Assembly (NCBI GenBank): GCA_961205875.1
Contig: OY540818.1
Coordinates: 13,676,761 to 13,740,760 of the forward strand
Length of the DNA: 64,000 nt
Direction of reading: 5' to 3'
Source of the DNA: Sialis fuliginosa
Taxonomy: Eukaryota; Arthropoda; Insecta; Megaloptera; Sialidae
Numbering within the stretch: position 1 is the first letter of the stretch; each line of letters starts with the position of its first letter. This document shows, in pieces, positions 1,791 through 51,140 of the stretch. A program made the position numbers and the translations under genes. Under the pieces are notes generated by a model that was not told the DNA's origin, did no database searches, and was given only the letters and a program-made list of their open reading frames with translations.

Positions 1791-2143
1791 AAAAATATAC
1801 AGTAGGACTCCTATAAGTTCTAAGCTACGGGACCATAAATTCTAAGAATTAGAAGATACAGGGTACCCCTTCCATCACAATACCGATCTAATGAAATGAG
1901 ACGGGAATAGCTTTCTCTCTCACTCGCACACTTTGCTCAGAGGTATCAAACATAACTCACGTGAATGATACTCTGGTGGTAAAATTGAAAAGTTATATGA
2001 CAGTTCATCATTTGTAAAGTATAGCGTTTCATATTGACTATTTTATCAATCCTCCCCCTACTATTAACAAAAAAAAACTAGTTATGAAACAGCTTTAGTT
2101 CAAGCTTTTACTTTTTTAAATATATTTATATAGTAACTAAATG

Positions 2144-2867
2144 ATTCTACGTTTTATTTTCTTGTATTTTAGTCGATATTTTGTGACGAGTTGAAGTTCA
2201 CTGCAGGAAATTTCACTAAAAAATTTCGAATTTTTGATTTCGTTAAAAGTATGTTTATTGTATAGAAAATGACGTGAAAAGTTGTTTGTTTCAAACCGCA
2301 GGTCTGTATCTCAAACCGTTCTCGAGATATAGCCTCTCAAAGTTTTAGTTTTTTCAAATTTTTGGAGAAAAAAGGCCATAACTTTTGAACGGGTGGTCGA
2401 AATTGATTTTAGTTGACGGATTTGGAATCAGCGTGTCAAAATCTATGTAATGACATGTATAATACATTAAAATTCAACCAAAAAAATTTGGTCAAAATTT
2501 GAATTTTTTCGATTTTTCGCGAAAATTTTTTTTTCTAGTTTTAAGGTATTATACATATCATTATATAGATTTTGACACGCTGTTTCCAAATCCGTCAACT
2601 AAAATCAATTCCGACCACGCGTTCAAAAGTTATGGCCTTTTTTCTCCAAAAATTTGAAAAAACTAAAACTTTGAGAGGCTATATCTCGAGAACGGTTTGA
2701 GATACAGACCGGCGGTTTGAAACAAACAACTTTTCACGTCATTTTCTATACAATAAACATACTTTTAACGAAATCAAAAATTCTAAATTTTTTAGTGAAA
2801 TTTCCTACAGTGAACTTTAACTCGTCATACAAATATCGACTAAAATATAAGAAAATAAGACGTAGAG
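2144..2867. repeat. 724-bp palindromic (fold-back) element
   Basis: Two arms of about 360 bp are reverse complements about centre 2505.5, from TTCTACGTTTTATTTT to its near complement. Each arm carries CTCGAGATATAGCCTCTCAAA, an ATAACTTTTGAAC box and TTTGGAATCAGCGTGTCAAA. Arms differ at scattered bases. The element shares a spaced module with the 46-50 kb palindrome. There is no coding capacity. Confidence 0.9.
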
Positions 2868-4032
2868 GTATTATAGTTTTATAATTGAACGTGTAAATTA
2901 ATATTAAATGCTATTTTTGACTTTTGGTTAAAATGTTTGAGTTGCGCATAAAGATGAATATTCTAATAATATTTTTAAATTATTTATTAACTGAAACACA
3001 GATTTGTATTAATTTACCCATAAAAAGGGAAGCACTGCTTCCCCTGCTTCCATGGATGCTTCGCCACTGATTTTAATAATTATTTTCTCAACGTTTACGC
3101 GTGGTTTGCTCATGCTCAGTATTGCAAAGCGTACTGGGCATCACACAAAGACGGTAAGGAGTGAGGGAAACAACTTCTCCTCCGATGTAGGGGAACTCGA
3201 ACTTAAATGGTTCGAACTTATAGGAGTCCAACTGTAGTTGAATTAAATAAGTAATAACGCATAATGGACTTGGTGAACCTGATATTGCAAATTCAGATTG
3301 TGAATTTTAAATTCCCTTTTAAAAATCAATAGAAAAAATATATCAAAACAAGTTCGAGTTTATATTTAGTGCATAAAAAACATAACAATGGACAACAACT
3401 TAAATTGATTGTATAAAAAAATACGAACAAAGTAGTTCCAATTACTAGGTCTTGGGTACCTAATTAAACCCATTTAAGATAACTATTGAGTGCGCAGCTC
3501 GAATAAATTTCAGCGGTACCTCGCTCAAGCTAATTAACAATTTATTAATATATTCAGTATTCAACGAAAATTAAATTATAAGAACATTACAAGCGAACCA
3601 CGTATGGAATAGCAAAGTTTGTGATTTAGAGTGAGAGCAAATAAGAGAAGGAGGTACAATTGAAAGCGACGTGACGACGATCCTAACTGCACAAGTTAGG
3701 ACAAGTTAACAAATGTATCCTACTTGCCACTTAACCCCTTATTGTTGGAATTATTTTGTTTGTGGAAGGATAAATCAAGTTTATATTCAGTTTGAAAGTC
3801 ACGTTCTCGAGATCTTAATCTCACAACTAATATTTATTTCGCACATTCAAGTGGACGTGCTTTTTTTAAATTCTAAATATGAATTGTTAACAATCCAAGC
3901 CTTCAGGGGTCCGGCGAATTCAATAATAAAATAAAGAAAAATTAATTTACAAAAATACGCTTTATTTATAAGGTTCTTTGTATTCTGTATTAAGATCAAG
4001 CATAACTCCTAAAACTAAAATGTTAAAGCTTT
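2868..4032. other. No gene seen
   Basis: The short open frames here (3052-3237, 3713-3934) have no domain or splice support. At 3017-3057 the - strand reads CAGTGGCGAAGCATCCATGG-like sequence, possibly one end of a CAGTGGCG-type element (compare 40530 and 60940). Confidence 0.4.
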
Positions 4033-15736: not shown

Positions 15737-15927
15737 ACTTTAATTTTAGGAAAAATTACAATTTCTAAATAAAAATTTACTATCTTATTATTATATATTA
15801 ATTAAATTTACAGACTTATTGTATTTTTAAATAAAAACATATCATTTTTATAATAATTCTGTAAATTATTGCAATACAGATAGTAAATTTTTATTTAGGA
15901 ATTGTAATTTTTACCAAAATTTTTCTC
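15737..15927. repeat. AT-rich hairpin repeat
   Basis: AAAAATTACAATTTCTAAAT and AAAAATTTACTATCT on the left are mirrored by AGATAGTAAATTTTTATTTA and GGAATTGTAATTTTT on the right. The loop contains a second ACAGACTTATTG/CAATACAGA pair. A MITE-like hairpin with no coding capacity. Confidence 0.7.
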
Positions 15928-19289: not shown

Positions 19290-20548
19290 TGTTATCTACG
19301 GTCAGGGCACGAACACTTATACAGCGTCTGCAGTAACACACACCTACCCCCGCTGCACACCGCACCCTTAAAAATATTCGAGTATTGCAGACCAATTCCT
19401 AGAACGAGACGTTACGTCACAGGCACGAGCGTGCCATTCTAACTCCACACTCCGCGCGCCCCTGAGTTACCCAGCGAAATTAGTATAAAACTGGACGTAT
19501 TTTGAAAACAAAGGAGAACTCCTTCGGGAGGACTCACTGATGATATAGGAGAACTTCTTAGGGAGGACTCAAACGATTGTTATACGGCTACAGGACCGCT
19601 TATTAGATGCGCCCTGCTAGTCAACAATCATAACGTGATAGACCAAACGATTGTTACACGGCTACAGGACCGCTTATTAGATGCGCCCTGCTAGTCAACA
19701 ATCATAACGTGATAGACCAAACGATTGTTACACGGCTACAGGACCGCTTATTAGATGCGCCCTGCTAGTCAACAATCATAACGTGATAGACCAAACGATT
19801 GTTACACGGCTACAGGACCGCTTATTAGATGCGCCCTGCTAGTCAACAATCATAACGTGATAGGCCAAACGATTGTTACACGGCTACAGGACCGCTTATT
19901 AGATGCGCCCTGCTAGTCAACAATCATAACGTGATAGACCAAACGATTGTTACACGGCTACAGGACCGCTTATTAGATGCGCCCTGCTAGTCAACAATCG
20001 TAATTCGATAGACTAAAACCGATTGTTATCACAGTTACAGGACCGCTTACTAGATGCGCCTTGCTAACTAACAGTCATTGTTGATATCCATAAAACTTCC
20101 TAGTGGGTTTCCGACACTAGGCTACGCCGTCGACGGAAGTCACCACTAGGTCAGCTCTTGCCGTCTCCTGCGACGCCGACGCCCGCACCGACGCCCTCGG
20201 ACGCTATCTCCAGGTCCGCCCTGGGACATCGCCTCCAGGCGCGCTCACGGACGCTCAACACGTCGACGCCCTCGCCGTCGCTCACGACGCCCAGGCTTTC
20301 GCGGTCACCTCAAGCGTGACCCCTCTACACGACGTCCCGACGTCGCCATCTCAACCGCATCTTGGACGTCGACGCCGCCCAACACGTCAGTCATAAATCC
20401 CGCCAAACTCAAGATGCAGCCAACCCCTTAACGACGATATACTAATACATGAAATCCAGTATATAAATTGTATTGTATATACTATTCTTATTGTTGCAAA
20501 TAAAATAAACAATAAAACACATCTCTCTGTCTCTCTCTAACAACAACA
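19290..20548 (+). mobile_element. GC-rich insertion, candidate solo LTR (BEL/Pao-like architecture)
   Basis: The block is far richer in GC than its surroundings. It starts TGTTATC and ends TAACAACAACA, contains a TATAAAA box (about 19484) and ends with tandem AATAAA signals (about 20503-20515) before a CT-rich stretch. Inside is a seven-unit tandem array (19571-20088), and then a run of GACGCC/GACGTC-rich sequence (20100-20400). Short repeats GGAGAACTCCTTCGGGAGGA and a variant precede the array. No gag/pol sequence is present. Target duplication was not found, so the ends are tentative; a satellite-bearing unrelated insertion is the alternative. Confidence 0.45.
19571..20088 (+). repeat. Tandem array, 74-bp unit, seven copies
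   Basis: Units start at 19571, 19645, 19719, 19793, 19867, 19941 and about 20015. The first six are almost identical (AAACGATTGTTACACGGCTA, CAGGACCGCTTATTAGATGC, CTAGTCAACAATCATAACGT); the seventh is clearly diverged. The unit contains an ACGATTGTT/AACAATCAT inverted pair, so each copy could fold. High identity implies recent expansion or homogenisation. Confidence 0.95.
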
Positions 20549-25426: not shown

Positions 25427-26667
25427 CATTTTATTTGTTTATACAGTCACACCTCGTTAAGAGAATTTTTGTAAAATCGATAAGATTACATTTTTCAAAA
25501 AAACAAATTGTAGAAACGTACGACCCTGGGTTAATTTTCAAACACATTTGATTTTTATCATACAATTTTAACAAATACATATCCACTTCTATAAATTCAA
25601 TTCATGTTCTTTTCGACTTTGTCGCTAATAGCTTAAATTAATTTTTTATAATTTAATTTTAAAACAATAAAATATTATTATTTGTTTAGCTATACTTATA
25701 CTTCAGACTGTTATAAAATATTGTAATACTTTTAAAATAAAAATTTATATTTTACAAAATGTATAATTATATTCATAAAATATGAATGGATATGAAGTAA
25801 GTAAATGTAATTTGTAATCGCTAATTCAACAAGATGAAAATTGCAATGAATGAAAAGCGTATAATGAAATAAACTGTATTTATTCCATACACTTTATAAC
25901 TGGAACATATTTATAATGTATTTATGGTAACTTATTATATGTTTTAATTAAATATTTTAACAATGACAACTCTCATCTTTCTAAATGAAAGATATCGCAT
26001 AACCACATTCATTAATTTTTATTTTCTCCAGTTTATGAAATAAAGTAATTTATATTGCATTTTATAAGGGTATACGTTTTAACGTACATAAAAGTGATAT
26101 TACATTTTTTTTAATATTTATTTTAAAAAGTGCTCACTTCACTTTTTTCTATGAGACGGCATACCAAAAAATCTTGTAACGTAAAAGGTTTTTGTGCACA
26201 CAATATGATATTATAGTACAATGGCGATGTCCCTTACAATACATTCTAGTTAACACATACAGTATACTCTCAACAATTGGTGCTTTTAATATACATATAT
26301 ATATGTATTCTGTACCTTAGAGGTAATTTTTACCTCAAAGAAAGGTACAGATTTCCACTAAAATATTTTTTTTTAATAGTTAATAGAATACTACGTACAT
26401 ATATGTAAGTAATTAAAAAATATAAATAATATAGGTAGTTTAAAATTTTCGAAATGGATTATACGTTATAATTATTTATATACATTATACACACAGCCAC
26501 GAAGCTGTCTGAAAAAATTAAGCCGGCAGACAATAATTTGTCAAACAGCATTATAGTAATAAATCATATTTTATTGTATTACCTAACGAAACAAATATAA
26601 TTATAGGTAAAAAGAATCAATATAAAATGCACCAATTATTTTGTATTAATTTAATTATTTGTTACAG
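25427..26667. other. Intron sequence before the 5-HT1 exon
   Basis: AT-rich. A hairpin TCTGTACCTT...GAGGTAATTTTTACCTC...AAGGTACAGA lies at about 26310-26352. The acceptor TTGTTACAG at 26659-26667 ends the intron. Confidence 0.5.
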
Positions 26668-27571
26668 ATATTGGGCTGTCACCAACATTGACTACATTCA
26701 CCAACGTACGGGCAGAAGAATTGGACTGATGATACTTGTCGTGTGGACTGTCGCGTTTCTGGTATGTATAGCACCAATGCTGGGATGGAAAGACGCCGAC
26801 TGGAATAGACGGGTCACGCAGGAACTCAAGTGTCTTGTAAGCCAAGACCTCAGCTATCAAATCTTTGCAACTGCGTCATCCTTCTACCTTCCTTTACTCG
26901 TGATTCTTATTCTGTACTGGCGCATCTTCCAAACTGCGCGTAAGCGGATTCGTCGACGACAAGCCTCGGCACCTGGTCCATCCGGAGCACCCAAGAACCC
27001 CGCTGCAGGTGGGGTCATTGCTGCAGCCAGTGGTAGCGGAGGGATAGCTGCGGCAGTCATCACTGTTATTGGTAGACCACTTCCGACAATCTCTGAGACG
27101 ACGACAACTACTGCTTTTACAACAGTGTCTTCCAATAACACTAGTCCAGAAAAAACATCGTTTGCCAATGGATTAGAAATTGATCCACCGACAACAACGG
27201 ATTGTGGGATGGTTTCTTATCAACCGAGTCATCACCATTACCCCGTTAAACGGAAGAATAAGGATGCAATGGACTCGAAACGAGAAAGGAAAGCGGCTAA
27301 GACATTAGCAATCATTACGGGAGCATTTGTAATGTGTTGGCTTCCGTTCTTTATTGTAGCGATTTTATTACCCGTGTATCACACGTGGACATTTAACCAA
27401 TATATGATGTCGTTCTTCTTATGGTTAGGGTACTTCAACTCAACACTAAATCCGATAATTTATACAATATTCAGCCCAGAGTTTCGACAAGCGTTTAAAC
27501 GTATTTTGTGCGGCCGAAGAGCAGCTGCCGTTCGTAGAAGACGCCATTTCGGTATTAGACATTTCCAATGA
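26668..27571 (+). CDS. 5-HT1: Serotonin receptor, 5-HT1 type: last coding exon (partial gene)
   Basis: This exon encodes the C-terminal 301 residues of a class A biogenic-amine GPCR, a plasma-membrane receptor that would couple serotonin to G proteins. It starts after an acceptor (TTGTTACAG) with the last base of the Arg codon of the DRY motif (RYWAVTNIDYIH). Then come TM4 (IGLMILVVWTVAFLVCIAP), the conserved loop-2 Cys in LKCLVSQD, TM5 (SSFYLPLLVILILYWRIF), a long Ala/Gly/Ser/Thr-rich third intracellular loop, TM6 with CWLPFF, TM7 with NSTLNPIIY, helix 8 (FRQAFKRILCG, with a Cys that could be palmitoylated), and TGA. The RYWAVTNIDY and VSQD segments fit insect 5-HT1 receptors better than octopamine or tyramine receptors. 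1A versus 1B is not decided. The ATG at 26627 is intronic. TM1-TM3 exons are absent from the 26.6 kb upstream, so a large intron is likely. Confidence 0.88.
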
Positions 27572-44087: not shown

Positions 44088-45900
44088 TTAATGACTCGGT
44101 GATGTTGGCACAGAACCAACAGTAAAATCTTTATATTGAGAAAATACGCAGATCTGAAATAATAAAATATTTATAATTTAAAAATTATTAATCATATTAT
44201 AAAGTGTAGTAAACTAAACTAAAATTCAAACTATACAAAATTTAACATTATCTTAACCCTGAACAGTCATACTTATTGTTTGTGACATAAGTATAATAGA
44301 CCCTAGTATTAAAAACTTGATTGGTAGTATAGAATTTTTTTTTGTGACAATTTAAAAGAAAAATTATGTACTTTCACTGGTTTTAAACTACCTTGTGGGC
44401 GAAGCTGCGGGTAACTACTAGTTGATTAATAAAATGATTCAATCTCCCTAGATGTATTTAGCCCCTTAAAAGCAATATTAGGTAGCAAGTGTAATCAATT
44501 AGACAAGCATTTTATGCAGCCATAAAGATGATTACAGTTAAGTACTAGACTTTCAGGACTTTAAAAGGATAAAAACCTATCAGAAATAACTGTACATTGT
44601 ACATCCAATGGACTTATTCCCTCCCACATTCTCGAAACTTAACAGTATGTATTTTAATAAGTAAAACTTACCTTATCTTTCAGTTGTTGACACAGTTGTA
44701 ATCCGACAGTAAATAACACCAACACATCATTTAACCATGGCACAGAACAATCAGCTTGAGAAGAATCAAACTTCATTGTTCCATGATTATTGCTCAACTG
44801 GTAAACCGCAAACACAAGCTTGTGACTTTGTATGTAAAAACTGATGGCTAAATCTTCAGTTAAATTTGGTGACAGCGATTTCATGTTACGACTTTTCATC
44901 AAATCATCAATTGCACGTTTTCGAGGCACTATGAGTGATGTACGCCCACGTTGCAAGCAACCAAGAATATTGGCTAGTACATGTAAAACTTCATCAGATG
45001 TACTGAAAATATATATAATATAGAAAAATTAATTTTGTTATATTTATAAATATTAAATGAACATTTCAACATTCTTTTATTAGTTTATAATAGTAATTTA
45101 AGATAAATTGAAATGCTAGTTTAATAAGTTGACATTAATCAGATAGTTTTCAATTTTATTTGATAGGAACATTCGTTAGATGACAACACCAAATTTCAAA
45201 TAATAAATGTAAATTATAGTCTATCCCAAGAACTGATAAATTATAACCTAACCAATAATTTTACTAATGAATTAGACATAAAAAACACTTACCGGAACAC
45301 ACACCCCTTTTCAATATTATCTATATGAGAAATAGCTTGCTGCAAATGATTTGCAGCATCCTGTATTTGTTGCAACTTCCAAGGATGTTCACTAGCTATA
45401 GATGTACGGCAAATCTGATTTTGATTTTGACGATGTACTCGGAAAGATATGTCCTACATAAATAACATCATATCTTTATGACCTAAATTGGCAACTATTA
45501 TTCAATCAACTATAATCACTAAACTTACCGCATGAGTTATGCTATCTCCTGTAAGCGTCACAACACATTTTAATTGATCTTGTGGTACAGTTAAAATAAA
45601 TTTATCCTGTTTCTGTGAATTTTCATTTCCATACAGAGGCACTGGGAATCGATGAGCACATTCCTAAAAAAATTGTATGTTATTAATTATATTATCATAG
45701 TCTCCTCGTAATTGTACTTACAACAAGAACATTATGTATCTGCTGCAAAACATTATGAACTTCTTCGCGAAGCATCCATTCAAATTCTATTTGCTAAAAT
45801 AAAATATTTAAAGTAAGAAATCATCGCAGAATTAAAGCAAAATACCAAAAATACTTTAACATACCAAATTTGATGCTTCCTCCAATTCATGGTCTGTCAT
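44088..45900 (-). CDS. rogdi: Rogdi (leucine zipper protein homologue), complete six-exon gene
   Basis: Exons in transcript order are 45865-45900, 45722-45793, 45529-45663, 45293-45453, 44672-45002 and 44088-44153. All have GT-AG borders and phases that join to 801 nt (266 aa), close to the size of the fly and human proteins. The product starts MTDHELEEASNLQIEFEWML. Family hallmarks are REEVHNVLQQIHNVL, KLQQIQDAANHLQQAI and VPWLNDVLVLFTVGLQLCQQ. The last 21 residues (from ICVFSQYKDF to SPSH) come from a separate short exon. Rogdi is a mainly neuronal cytoplasmic/synaptic protein. Loss causes Kohlschutter-Tonz syndrome in humans and affects memory and sleep in flies. It resembles yeast Rav2 and is linked to V-ATPase assembly. 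The start is the first ATG after a short leader, in agreement with the family N-terminus. Identification rests on remembered family sequence. Confidence 0.93.
44388..44430 (-). repeat. Retroelement tail remnant (reverse)
   Basis: On the - strand it reads CTAGTAGTTACCCGCAGCTT then CGCCCAC, the GC-rich tail box also seen at 1728-1769. It lies about 240 bp from the rogdi fifth exon, in its last intron. Confidence 0.5.
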
Positions 45901-46105
45901 TTTTGTAAATTAGCTAAAGGTGCCTTTTCATTTGACGCTCGACGCTAGTGTCAAATCTTGTCACGTGGTATCAAGGTATCTAAAGACAAGGCAAGGTATA
46001 TAAAGGCAAGGTAGTCACAATACCACATTTACCAATCAGCGTTGGCGCGGGAATTGACGTCACCCAAGGAATATATTCAAATGCTATAAATTTTGCTTCT
46101 AGCAA
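45901..46105 (-). promoter_or_regulatory. Putative rogdi promoter and 5' leader
   Basis: The 205 bp between the rogdi ATG and the giant palindrome is less AT-rich than its surroundings. It contains a CACGTG E-box (45962-45967), an inverted CCAAT box (CCAAT on the + strand, 46032-46036), an E2F-like TTGGCGCGGGAA (from 46042) and a full CRE-like TGACGTCA (46055-46062). The sites are seen; promoter function is inferred from position. Two direct short repeats (AAGGTATCTAAAGACAAGG-like, 45974-46015) lie in the middle. Confidence 0.55.
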
Positions 46106-46489
46106 TTATAAATAAAAGGTAAGTAATTTTCAATTGTACAATACTTTATCCCTGTGTAGATAAACAGGTAACAAAGAACTAATAAAAAGCATCTATGTAG
46201 ATAAATAGATGTTATAAACTCAGTCAGTTAGCAAACATGCATATTATACATGTGTAGATAAACAGCTATATCATCAATTTTGAAACTATTATACACTCCA
46301 TAGTATGTAAGAGAACATGCTGATAACATATATTACACCATAGTTTAAACTCATTCATTTATACAAACGATAGCGTCTCTTGTTTGTCAAAAAAATAATT
46401 GATTTAGTCGGAATGGCTTCTGAAAAAAATTAAAAATTTAAATGCTACATGTGGCGCCATCTAGCAAAAACTGCTTGAACTAACAAGTT
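46106..46489 (+). repeat. Terminal truncated monomer of the palindrome, left
   Basis: This end block carries three spaced copies of TGTAGATAAACAG or close variants (about 46155, 46196 and 46253). It is mirrored at 50286-50669. These short repeats are absent from the internal monomers, so they mark the terminus of the element. Confidence 0.7.
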
Positions 46490-49400
46490 TTTGATAGTTC
46501 AAATTTATCCCGTTAGATGGTACCATATGTTCCATTTAAATATCAATATTTTTTTCAGATGCCATTACGACTAAATCAATTTTTTTTTTACAAGTTAGTA
46601 TGTATTAGAACATCCTGAATCCAATAATGCGCTTAAAAAGATTCGCTCGTATCGATAAAACTGTTTTTTTATCAACTTTGTTTAAAAAATTTACTTGAAA
46701 TTTTGAGCAAATGATTTTTTTAAAATCTGGTGTAATATACGTTATCAGTGAGTCTTTTTACATACGATAGTGACTCTATTACTTTCAAATTCAAAATGGG
46801 TGTGTTAATTACTGTACTGAAAAACACATCCTTATTGAATTTGAAAATAATTGACACGCCATCGTATGTAATATGATGCGCTGATATCAGAAATGATAAT
46901 AGATTTTAAATCAATTCACTGGTTTAAAATATGATGAAATTTTTTAAGACAAAAGTTGATAAAAAACCGTGTTATCGATCCGAGCGCAACTTTTGATGGG
47001 CATATTTGGAATCAGGGTGCCCTAATACATACGATAGCGTCTCTAACTCGACAAAAAATTTTGGACACCAAAATAATCAGAGGTAATAGCATTGGTAAAA
47101 AAACACTCGAAAAATACTTTTTTCGATTTTCAAATAATTAGATACGTTATCGCATGTAAAGGGATACGCTGATTCGACTTTTTTTATCAATTGCAAAATT
47201 CATCAAAGGGTTCAAAAGTTACAGCCATTTTACGACGAAAAATTGATAAAAAACGGTGATAGGGGTCCGAGCGGAACTTTTTATCAACATTTTTGGAATC
47301 ACCATGCTGTTATGCGTACGATAGCGTGCCTAACTCGACAAAAAAAAAATTGTAGCGATGACGTAACATGACGGCGCCTTCACCATATATAAAAATGTAC
47401 AAAAATAATATATATTTGGTATTTTTGAATAAGGAATACTAAAAAATCAAAAAATATTTTATTCTGTATATTTTTATATATGGTGGAGGCACCGTCGTGT
47501 TACGTCATCAGATAAAATTTTTTTTTATCGAGTTAGGTATGCTATCGTATGTATAATAACACGGTGATTCCAAAAATGTTGATAAAAAGTTCCGCTCGGA
47601 CCCCTATCACCGTTTTTTATCAATTTTTCGTCGTAAAATGGCTGTAACTTTTGAACCCTTTGATGAATTTTGCAACTGATAATAAAAGTCGAATCAGCGT
47701 ATCACTTTACATGCGATAACGTATCTAATTATTTGAAAATCGAAAAAAGTATTTTTCGAGTGTTTTTTATCCAATGCTATTACCTCTGATTATTTTGGTG
47801 TCCAAAATTTTTTGTCGAGTTAGAGACGCTATCGTATGTATTAGGGCACCCTGATTCCAAATATGCCCATCAAAAGTTGCGCTCGGATCGATAACACGGT
47901 TTTTTATCAACTTTTGTCTTAAAAAATTTCATCATATTTTAAACCAGTGAATTGATTTAAAATCTATTATCATTTCTGATATCAGCGCATCATATTACAT
48001 ACGATGGTGTGTCAATTATTTTCAAATTCAATAAGGATGAGTTTTTCAGTACGGTAATTGATACACCCATTTCGAATTTGAAAGTATTTTAAACGCCATC
48101 GTATGTAAAAGGACATGCTGATATCATATATTACACCAGATTAAAATTCCTTCATTGGTTAAAAATTACAAGCAAATTGTTTAGACAAATGTTGATAAAA
48201 AACAGTTTTATCGATCCGATCGAAACTTTATGTGTCCATTTTTGGACTCAGGATGCCCTAATACATACGATAGGGTCTTTAATTCGTTAAAAAAAATTTA
48301 CTTAGTCGGAATGGCTTCTGAATTTTTTTGTTGTAATTTTAAAAGTACATGTAACATCTATCGTGAAAAGCTTGAATAAATCTGACTTATTAGTTCGAGC
48401 TGTGTCTGCTAGATGGCGACACAAAAATTTTAAATTTCAAAAAAATTCAGAAGCCATTCCGACTAACAATAAGTCAATTTTTTTTTAACGAATTAAAGAC
48501 CCTATCGTATGTATTAGGGCATCCTGAGTCCAAAAATGCACACATAAAGTTTCGATCGGATCGATAAAACTGTTTTTTATCAACATTTGTCTAAACAATT
48601 TGCTTGTAATTTTTAACCAATGAAGGAATTTTAATCTGGTGTAATATATGATATCAGCATGTCCTTTTACATACGATGGCGTTTAAAATACTTTCAAATT
48701 CGAAATGGGTGTATCAATTACCGTACTGAAAAACTCATCCTTATTGAATTTGAAAATAATTGACACACCATCGTATGTAATATGATGCGCTGATATCAGA
48801 AATGATAATAGATTTTAAATCAATTCACTGGTTTAAAATATGATGAAATTTTTTAAGACAAAAGTTGATAAAAAACCGTGTTATCGATCCGAGCGCAACT
48901 TTTGATGGGCATATTTGGAATCAGGGTGCCCTAATACATACGATAGCGTCTCTAACTCGACAAAAAATTTTGGACACCAAAATAATCAGAGGTAATAGCA
49001 TTGGATAAAAAACACTCGAAAAATACTTTTTTCGATTTTCAAATAATTAGATACGTTATCGCATGTAAAGTGATACGCTGATTCGACTTTTATTATCAGT
49101 TGCAAAATTCATCAAAGGGTTCAAAAGTTACAGCCATTTTACGACGAAAAATTGATAAAAAACGGTGATAGGGGTCCGAGCGGAACTTTTTATCAACATT
49201 TTTGGAATCACCGTGTTATTATACATACGATAGCATACCTAACTCGATAAAAAAAAATTTTATCTGATGACGTAACACGACGGTGCCTCCACCATATATA
49301 AAAATATACAGAATAAAATATTTTTTGATTTTTTAGTATTCCTTATTCAAAAATACCAAATATATATTATTTTTGTACATTTTTATATATGGTGAAGGCG

Positions 49401-50669
49401 CCGTCATGTTACGTCATCGCTACAATTTTTTTTTTGTCGAGTTAGGCACGCTATCGTACGCATAACAGCATGGTGATTCCAAAAATGTTGATAAAAAGTT
49501 CCGCTCGGACCCCTATCACCGTTTTTTATCAATTTTTCGTCGTAAAATGGCTGTAACTTTTGAACCCTTTGATGAATTTTGCAATTGATAAAAAAAGTCG
49601 AATCAGCGTATCCCTTTACATGCGATAACGTATCTAATTATTTGAAAATCGAAAAAAGTATTTTTCGAGTGTTTTTTTACCAATGCTATTACCTCTGATT
49701 ATTTTGGTGTCCAAAATTTTTTGTCGAGTTAGAGACGCTATCGTATGTATTAGGGCACCCTGATTCCAAATATGCCCATCAAAAGTTGCGCTCGGATCGA
49801 TAACACGGTTTTTTATCAACTTTTGTCTTAAAAAATTTCATCATATTTTAAACCAGTGAATTGATTTAAAATCTATTATCATTTCTGATATCAGCGCATC
49901 ATATTACATACGATGGCGTGTCAATTATTTTCAAATTCAATAAGGATGTGTTTTTCAGTACAGTAATTAACACACCCATTTTGAATTTGAAAGTAATAGA
50001 GTCACTATCGTATGTAAAAAGACTCACTGATAACGTATATTACACCAGATTTTAAAAAAATCATTTGCTCAAAATTTCAAGTAAATTTTTTAAACAAAGT
50101 TGATAAAAAAACAGTTTTATCGATACGAGCGAATCTTTTTAAGCGCATTATTGGATTCAGGATGTTCTAATACATACTAACTTGTAAAAAAAAAATTGAT
50201 TTAGTCGTAATGGCATCTGAAAAAAATATTGATATTTAAATGGAACATATGGTACCATCTAACGGGATAAATTTGAACTATCAAAAACTTGTTAGTTCAA
50301 GCAGTTTTTGCTAGATGGCGCCACATGTAGCATTTAAATTTTTAATTTTTTTCAGAAGCCATTCCGACTAAATCAATTATTTTTTTGACAAACAAGAGAC
50401 GCTATCGTTTGTATAAATGAATGAGTTTAAACTATGGTGTAATATATGTTATCAGCATGTTCTCTTACATACTATGGAGTGTATAATAGTTTCAAAATTG
50501 ATGATATAGCTGTTTATCTACACATGTATAATATGCATGTTTGCTAACTGACTGAGTTTATAACATCTATTTATCTACATAGATGCTTTTTATTAGTTCT
50601 TTGTTACCTGTTTATTTACACAGGTATAAAGTATTATACAATTGAAAATTACTTACCTTTTATTTATAA
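46106..50669. repeat. Giant palindrome built of alternating mirror-image ~950-bp monomers
   Basis: The two 2.28-kb arms are near-identical reverse complements about centre 48387.5. They begin and end with TTATAAATAAAAGG and its complement. Inside each arm are further mirror centres: type A at about 46489, 48388 and 50286, and type B at about 47433 and 49342. A centres carry a hairpin with GATTTAGTCGGAATGGCTTC and AGATGGCGCCA. B centres carry GACGTAACATGACGGCGCC and ATATATAAAAATGTAC. Spacing is about 944 and 955 bp, so the whole is A-B-A-B-A plus about 383 bp of truncated monomer at each end. The motif ACATACGATAGCG recurs throughout. Arms about the global centre are nearly identical, sequence near B is well matched, and the A-proximal parts of neighbouring monomers have diverged visibly. 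No convincing protein is encoded, and the family is not recognised. Confidence 0.93.
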
Positions 50670-50999
50670 ATATTATATACGTACAATAGCGTCATTGTTG
50701 AGACATATGTATTATTGATGCACCTATTGATTATTTATTGTTAAAATACTTTTTATTGTATTGTATATAATAAAAAAATAAAATAAAACAAACCCCCTTG
50801 GGATTCGAATTCTGAACCCTTGGGTAGCGAGATGTACTCTAATTTTTTGTATATTTAAAAATTCCAATCAATCGATATTATATCGAAAAAACACAAGACG
50901 CATAATATTTTAGCCATATTCAAAGGTTTTTAAAAAACATTTAATCTTATCGATCCAATCATCTATACTGGCAATGATTTTGTTTTTTTTCAAAAATTT

Positions 51000-51140
51000 A
51001 CTAAAATAATAAAGCAATCTGATTGGCATCAAAATAGGTCACATGGCAAGATTTGATGCTAGAAACGAGCGTCGAGCGACAATATGAAAAGGCAACTTAA
51101 TATTGAAACGAAATAAAATGTCAGCTAACAGTAAAATGAC
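51000..51140 (+). repeat. Degenerate inverted copy of the rogdi promoter/leader
   Basis: Read on the + strand, this stretch resembles the rogdi upstream region read on the - strand. Shared in order are CTGATTGG, CACRTGNCAAGATTTGA, CTAG, CGTCGAGCG and ATGAAAAGGCAMCTT, followed by an ATG (51118) and AAAATGACAGA (51131). The downstream frame stops after 10 codons, so no rogdi coding sequence is preserved beyond possibly the first codons. It lies about 330 bp outside the right end of the giant palindrome. Confidence 0.6.

Follow-up and report, generated by a model that had tools for sequence, protein, structure and literature searches.

Among the systems that we compared, the three closest in build to the palindrome analyzed here are Tetris, gadMor-hAT-1784, and Galileo, all of which are described, in the parts of the reports cited here, as carrying long inverted repeats that themselves contain repeats of around 170 to 220 bp (PMC4079207, PMC12368964, PMC3573991). 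Tetris is a foldback transposon of Drosophila virilis with inverted repeats of up to 1,735 bp, internal repeats of about 220 bp, and no conserved reading frames in the cited account (PMC4079207). The Atlantic cod MITE gadMor-hAT-1784, assigned to hAT, is non-autonomous and has inverted repeats of about 600 bp that are made of 167-169 bp repeats (PMC12368964), while Galileo, a P-superfamily element of Drosophila, has internally repetitive inverted repeats that are 98-100% alike within a copy and that, as its authors propose, are lengthened when repair copies from one arm into the other (PMC3573991).

The locus studied here forms a palindrome in a window of 64,000 bases without any N, by which we mean the whole stretch of DNA that was analyzed. 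It shares with Tetris the long inverted repeats and the approximate size of the internal repeat (184 bp here), and it has no long reading frame where Tetris has no conserved ones, but the repeats of Tetris are direct and tandem whereas the units here alternate in orientation within nested mirrors, and the separate middle domain of Tetris contrasts with an imperfect hairpin in the middle of our element (PMC4079207). The 8-10 bp target duplications described for Tetris (PMC4079207) have no visible counterpart at 46106/50669, where only the 6-mer TTATAA is shared. For gadMor-hAT-1784, several copies located at inversion breakpoints are described, and mirrors at several levels with identical 2-kb arms are absent from the cited parts of that report (PMC12368964). 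Galileo differs in having transposase-bearing relatives and 7-bp target duplications, and the cited passages speak of internal sequence being recruited into its repeats rather than of several nested rounds (PMC3573991).

In our preferred reading, to which we give a probability of roughly 60%, the palindrome is a non-coding, foldback-transposon-like repeat that was enlarged by stepwise mirroring and by copying from arm to arm. It works like a foldback element in that very long inverted repeats make up most of it and short internal repeats lie within its arms (head-to-tail only at the D junctions described below), and we liken it to that class rather than file it there.

Most of the long palindromes on record, which are unstable structures, come from mammalian sex chromosomes or laboratory yeast, and those of mammalian sex chromosomes are much larger than the present one and often gene-bearing. 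A small, layered insect palindrome whose mid-arms are identical, whose core has diverged, and whose older layers are still visible would make it possible to reconstruct from the sequence alone in which order inverted duplications took place and how far conversion tracts extend. It also has a bearing on the way in which foldback repeats grow longer and on the possible copying of pieces of neighboring gene promoters. Arm-to-arm gene conversion keeps the arms of the mammalian palindromes more than 99% identical (PMC8981503, PMC3723533), as we propose for ours, which measures 4.6 kb, is non-coding, and is built of short repeats. For a parthenogenetic springtail with 11 inverted-duplication palindromes, Ks was argued to speak against concerted evolution (PMC5490193), an analogy that would caution against simply assuming conversion at our locus.

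Mirror axes of the palindrome

Self-BLAST confirmed the palindrome as a real structure in the sequence, a single inverted repeat centered at 48387.5 with 98.4% identity over 4,578 columns (Table 1). Further axes lie at 46488.5, 47437.5, 49342, and 50286.5, and the spacings between successive main axes are 949, 950, 954.5, and 944.5 bp, so that the five alternating mirror centers of the preliminary description were recovered at near-even spacing where it had placed them. It had overlooked four additional C-type mirror centers at approximately 46815, 48052, 48724, and 49960, which are older than the five main axes, and the monomer of about 950 bp that it took as the basic unit is a composite made of units of about 184 bp. 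Mirrors are nested at three or four levels in the palindrome, and these nested axes support the idea of stepwise growth with alternating mirror geometry that the same description had put forward.

Table 1. Positions of the palindromes, their units, cores, and junctions, and of the flanking rogdi sequences in the window.
Feature	Position	Strand	Remark
Whole palindrome	46106-50669	.	TTATAA at both ends
Left arm tract	46160-48235	+	100% identical to right
Right arm tract	48540-50615	-	100% identical to left
Central A core	48277-48498	.	Imperfect palindrome, head-to-head junction of u6 and its mirror; alignment
Left outer A core	46377-46589	.	82-83% identical to central A core (gaps not counted)
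Right outer A core	50186-50398	.	Mirror of left outer
B core of left arm	47328-47538	.	Imperfect palindrome, u3/u4 head-to-head junction
B core of right arm	49237-49447	.	
Truncated unit u0	46284-46392	-	Outside outer A core, into which its profile match extends
Mirror copy of truncated u0	50383-50491		
Unit u1 (~184 bp)	46590-46773	+	
Unit u2	46856-47040	-	
Unit u3	47144-47327	-	
Unit u4	47539-47722	+	
Unit u5	47826-48010	+	99.5% identical to u2
Unit u6	48093-48276	-	
Six mirror copies of u1-u6	within 48499-50185		
C junction, u1/u2	46774-46855	.	Tail-to-tail
C junction copies	48011-48092, 48683-48764, 49920-50001		
D junction, u2/u3	47041-47143	.	Head-to-tail
D junction copies	47723-47825, 48950-49052, 49632-49734		
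Second palindrome	2143-2870	.	Center ~2506; BLAST extent 2146-2866; both arms match unit model
rogdi 5' region	45917-45967	-	Upstream of start codon; matched by far-side copy
Decayed inverted copy of rogdi 5' region	51040-51098	+	BLAST, shuffles

The alternation of A and B junctions at nearly even spacing, combined at the A level with near-perfect arms and a hairpin core that is imperfect, would also suit a linear DNA, covalently closed by a hairpin at either end, that had integrated as a concatemer. We nevertheless regard such an origin as extremely improbable: The monomers are unequal and composite, the extra C centers have no place in it, a relative of the unit sits in a simple palindrome (see below), and none of the six frames across 46106-50669 stays free of stops for more than 77 codons, although a non-coding satellite of such a DNA would lack coding capacity too. 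Moreover, host sequence from rogdi is found on both sides in mirror orientation, and a preformed, inserted concatemer would not have included it in its mirror. From the replication model offered in the preliminary description, the linear DNA with two hairpin ends is not supported, while its self-priming fold-back is compatible with what we find.

The repeat unit and its relative in the window

The unit of about 184 bp has six full copies in each arm (12 in total), which were defined by motif scan and alignment, and two truncated copies, one per arm, which were found with a profile. A scan of the window for its motif GCTATCGTATGTANNAGGNCANNCTGA, allowing up to three mismatches, returned 12 occurrences, all of them within the palindrome, against a chance expectation of 0.00. 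Most units start with a sequence similar to ACGCTATCGTATGT and finish with its inverted counterpart, and we compared mirrored half-units in three of the six units. Shuffled sequences scored as well in 0/300 cases for u2, 2/300 for u6, and 20/300 for u3, which supports the unit as an old inverted pair for u2 and u6 and does so only weakly for u3. Neighboring units meet head-to-head at the A and B junctions, tail-to-tail at C, and head-to-tail at D. The idea that the A and B cores are mutual copies found no support, with 48/200 and 144/200 shuffles scoring as high. No Rfam family matched the window at gathering scores, and no tRNA was found in it using the bacterial code.

Across the B mirror, identity is 0.951 for u3/u4, 0.981 for D, 0.995 for u2/u5, 0.924 for C, and 0.832 for u1/u6. 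The last value is hardly above that of u6 against u2 (0.823), which makes any ranking of the oldest steps by age weak. When the units are placed in a tree, u2 joins u5 (support 99/98) and, less firmly, u3 joins u4 (94/89), with three of the six inner branches left open; mirrored units are sisters where the arms have been homogenized, and the tree gives no order for the oldest steps.

A search of the window with a profile of six units, for which 45880-51130 was masked, matched both arms of a second palindrome of about 720 bp that lies about 43 kb from the large one (E 4.5e-6 and 2.2e-5, compared with E 7 as the best value of the reversed-sequence control). Unit tails face the center in both of its arms. 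Single-sequence comparison of the element with this second palindrome was borderline (1/200 shuffles as high), and BLAST between the two did no better than the reversed control. The second palindrome looks like a simple tail-to-tail pair that is far diverged from the large palindrome, and because the unit is distantly related to it, the unit belongs to a repeat family, of which the 64-kb window holds this one distant relative. Pattern scans of public DNA used sets that say little about an insect repeat: Four patterns had 0 matches in viral contigs, and one pattern matched 6 bacterial records among prokaryote contigs where about 4 were estimated by chance.

Drosophila has loci for hairpin RNAs (hpRNAs; PMC10317233 and others), and the geometry of our palindrome would yield a double-stranded stem of about 2 kb. 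Read-through transcription could thus be imagined to produce a long dsRNA that is diced to siRNAs, with this function keeping the arms identical. Judged from its sequence, we consider such a role highly improbable, given that 45880-48400 had no match in the rest of the window above the best match of the reversed-sequence control (both 36.5 bits) and that the element resembles repeats rather than a fragment of a gene.

Arm identity and probable gene conversion

Arm-to-arm alignment revealed zero differences over the 2,076 bp of the two arm tracts, homopolymers included, so that the near-perfect central symmetry claimed in the preliminary description is borne out. The arms proper (46106-48276 and 48499-50669; 2,171 bp, ungapped) differ by 4 substitutions, three of which (46139, 46150, and 46159) fall within the outermost 54 bp of the arm, while the fourth (48236) is 41 bp from its inner end. 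The halves of the central A core align with 87 matches, 11 mismatches, and 26 gap columns, and the arms are more alike than core and ends. Perfect identity across 2,076 bp, homopolymers included, might be taken to betray a fold-back read or a mis-join that doubled one arm in the assembly. However, the flanks differ, the core is not mirrored, substitutions occur near the arm ends, and each arm contains the older B mirror, all of which is unlike a read hairpin, and ordinary long reads easily span 4.6 kb. We think an artefact very improbable.

A comparable profile emerges when the left arm is followed along its B mirror: Identity, as summed from alignment counts with gaps left out, is 98.7% over 46850-47299 and drops to about 85% over 46600-46849 and to about 84% within the B core. 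The halves running from A to B and from B to A are accordingly unequal, at about 99% mid-arm and about 85% nearer to A, and what had been noted earlier as divergence of the inner A-side symmetry holds for this B mirror in its core and nearer to A, its middle being almost identical.

The differences along each mirror were treated as events and compared with random placement. At the A level including core and ends (32 events in 2,311 columns), the longest clean run was 2,076 compared with at most 681 in 2,000 placements; 22 of these events crowd into the innermost eighth, where the core is located, and of the other 10 only 3 lie inside 46106, about 7 being beyond the end of the palindrome. At the B level, the longest clean run of 237 compares with at most 132 in 5,000 random placements, and the cleanest 400 columns hold 5 events where random placements had at least 15. 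In the second palindrome, the longest clean run of 91 is within the random range (maximum 130), and its cleanest 200 columns with 3 events were the lowest of 5,000 placements, a value reached by 0/5,000 in a repeat run. A near-identical middle of the arm with diverged core and ends recurs at both main levels, A and B, and is weakest in the second palindrome.

This identity profile fits stepwise inverted duplication followed by gene conversion between the arms, which predicts the worst agreement in core and ends and the best in mid-arm, unlike a single even-aged duplication. Hairpin cores might mutate faster for other reasons, which counts against the conversion reading as far as the cores are concerned and leaves the outer ends unexplained. 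The case for GC-biased conversion was not convincing, with a GC content of 30.5% in the arms, 31.1% in the left flank, and 22.3% in the right flank.

The complete lack of differences over 2,076 bp would also be expected from a single, very recent inverted duplication around an old A palindrome, with arms that are identical because they are young and without any gene conversion, and the A core as a ready-made hairpin could have primed the required fold-back. We find this unlikely. The 4 substitutions lie at both ends of the arms, and when 4 changes were placed at random in the arms proper, a clean run of at least 2,076 bp arose in only 5 of 200,000 trials. Furthermore, the B mirror repeats the profile of low core, high middle, and low ends at an older age, and the decayed inverted rogdi copy beyond the right end points to an older axis. 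These points still allow for a young duplication whose ends happened to fall in older inverted repeats.

In the mechanism that we propose for stepwise mirroring with arm-to-arm copying, the building block would be a unit of about 184 bp with imperfect inverted ends, copies of which would have multiplied in place by repeated inverted duplication, first into tail-to-tail pairs at C, then by mirroring at B, and then by mirroring at A. During break repair or at stalled replication, one arm would likely fold back on its inverted partner or be copied from it, and the repeat would lengthen because the copied tract extends past the old repeat. Once long arms are present, the same copying would act as gene conversion that removes differences in mid-arm and spares the hairpin core and the ends.

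Host sequence in the flanks

The host gene rogdi lies to the left of the palindrome on the minus strand with its ATG at 45900, and its 5' region is matched by the decayed inverted copy beyond the right end (BLAST E 2e-7; 59 columns with 45 identical and 8 gap columns). This match scores 65 compared with 29 for the best elsewhere in the window, and 0/500 shuffles were as good. An inverted copy in this position suggests that the mirror once took in host sequence. Had a simple inverted duplication taken place here, 45970-46105 should align with 50670-51039, yet the two stretches do not (129/500 shuffles as high). The long alignment of both flanks scored 152.5, within the range of 300 shuffles (mean 121, maximum 163), and so does not establish mirror symmetry beyond the rogdi copy. 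Because the intervening stretches and the longer flanks fail to align, the rogdi copy may have another history.

The borders of the palindrome are similarly ambiguous, as TTATAA is its own reverse complement, so that a target duplication and a repeat end look the same, and the true borders of the element may lie elsewhere than at 46106/50669.

The inverted rogdi copy also touches on a possible, though quite tentative, extension in which hairpin-tipped units of about 184 bp would themselves drive in-place mirroring at the levels of unit, C, B, and A and thereby form a self-propagating, "fractal" palindrome. The idea, which we judge rather unlikely, has the corollaries that the rounds would decrease in age from unit to A, that an A-level round would have drawn in the rogdi 5' end, and that conversion would keep the newest arms near-perfect. 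If true, a small foldback repeat could grow into long palindromes and inverted copies of gene promoters without transposing.

The identity of rogdi itself is supported by Pfam Rogdi_lz (E 1.7e-31) and by matches to solved rogdi homologues. The lacewing Chrysoperla carnea supplies its best protein match (85%), ahead of a beetle (78%), and three named Lepidoptera reach 66-71% (all among the best 120 of 488 matches), so that the lepidopteran source assumed in the preliminary description is probably wrong and a neuropterid insect is the most likely origin of the window. Elsewhere in the window, 26627-27571 is an exon of a serotonin-receptor-type GPCR.

Ends of the large palindrome and its smaller relative

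Directly beyond the right end of the large palindrome (46106-50669), whose two mirrored arms are built from ~184-bp units, a motif resembling the unit end lies at 50677-50694 but is not significant against the profile of the six units (E 0.15-0.37), and the left side of the palindrome has no mirror counterpart of it. Near the left border, at 46140-46260, three TGTGTAGATAAACAG-like short words are spaced along the outer arm end and appear by eye to be separate from the unit family. The second palindrome (see table) has a mid-arm identity of about 98%, with diverged core and ends.

Features of the window beside the large palindrome
Feature	Position	Details
Second palindrome	2143-2870	~720 bp; kin to ~184-bp unit
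Further imperfect palindrome	15742-15921	76% across 188 columns
Tandem array	19570-20066	period 74 bp, 6.7 copies, 96% matches
Exon, serotonin-receptor-type GPCR	26627-27571
Inverted copy of rogdi 5' region	51040-51140	decayed; beyond large palindrome, side opposite rogdi

Words in the B core and around rogdi

Within the B core, the imperfect palindrome inside each arm, TGACGT and TATATAAAA words were seen by eye in two inward-facing stretches (47345-47520) that may resemble promoter parts. TGACGTCA was also spotted upstream of the host gene rogdi. By eye, the rogdi 5' region and its inverted copy further have start-codon and E-box-like surroundings in common.

Right flank

At 50790-50840, by eye, an A/T-rich run adjoins a tRNA-like box; together, they are possibly a SINE remnant.
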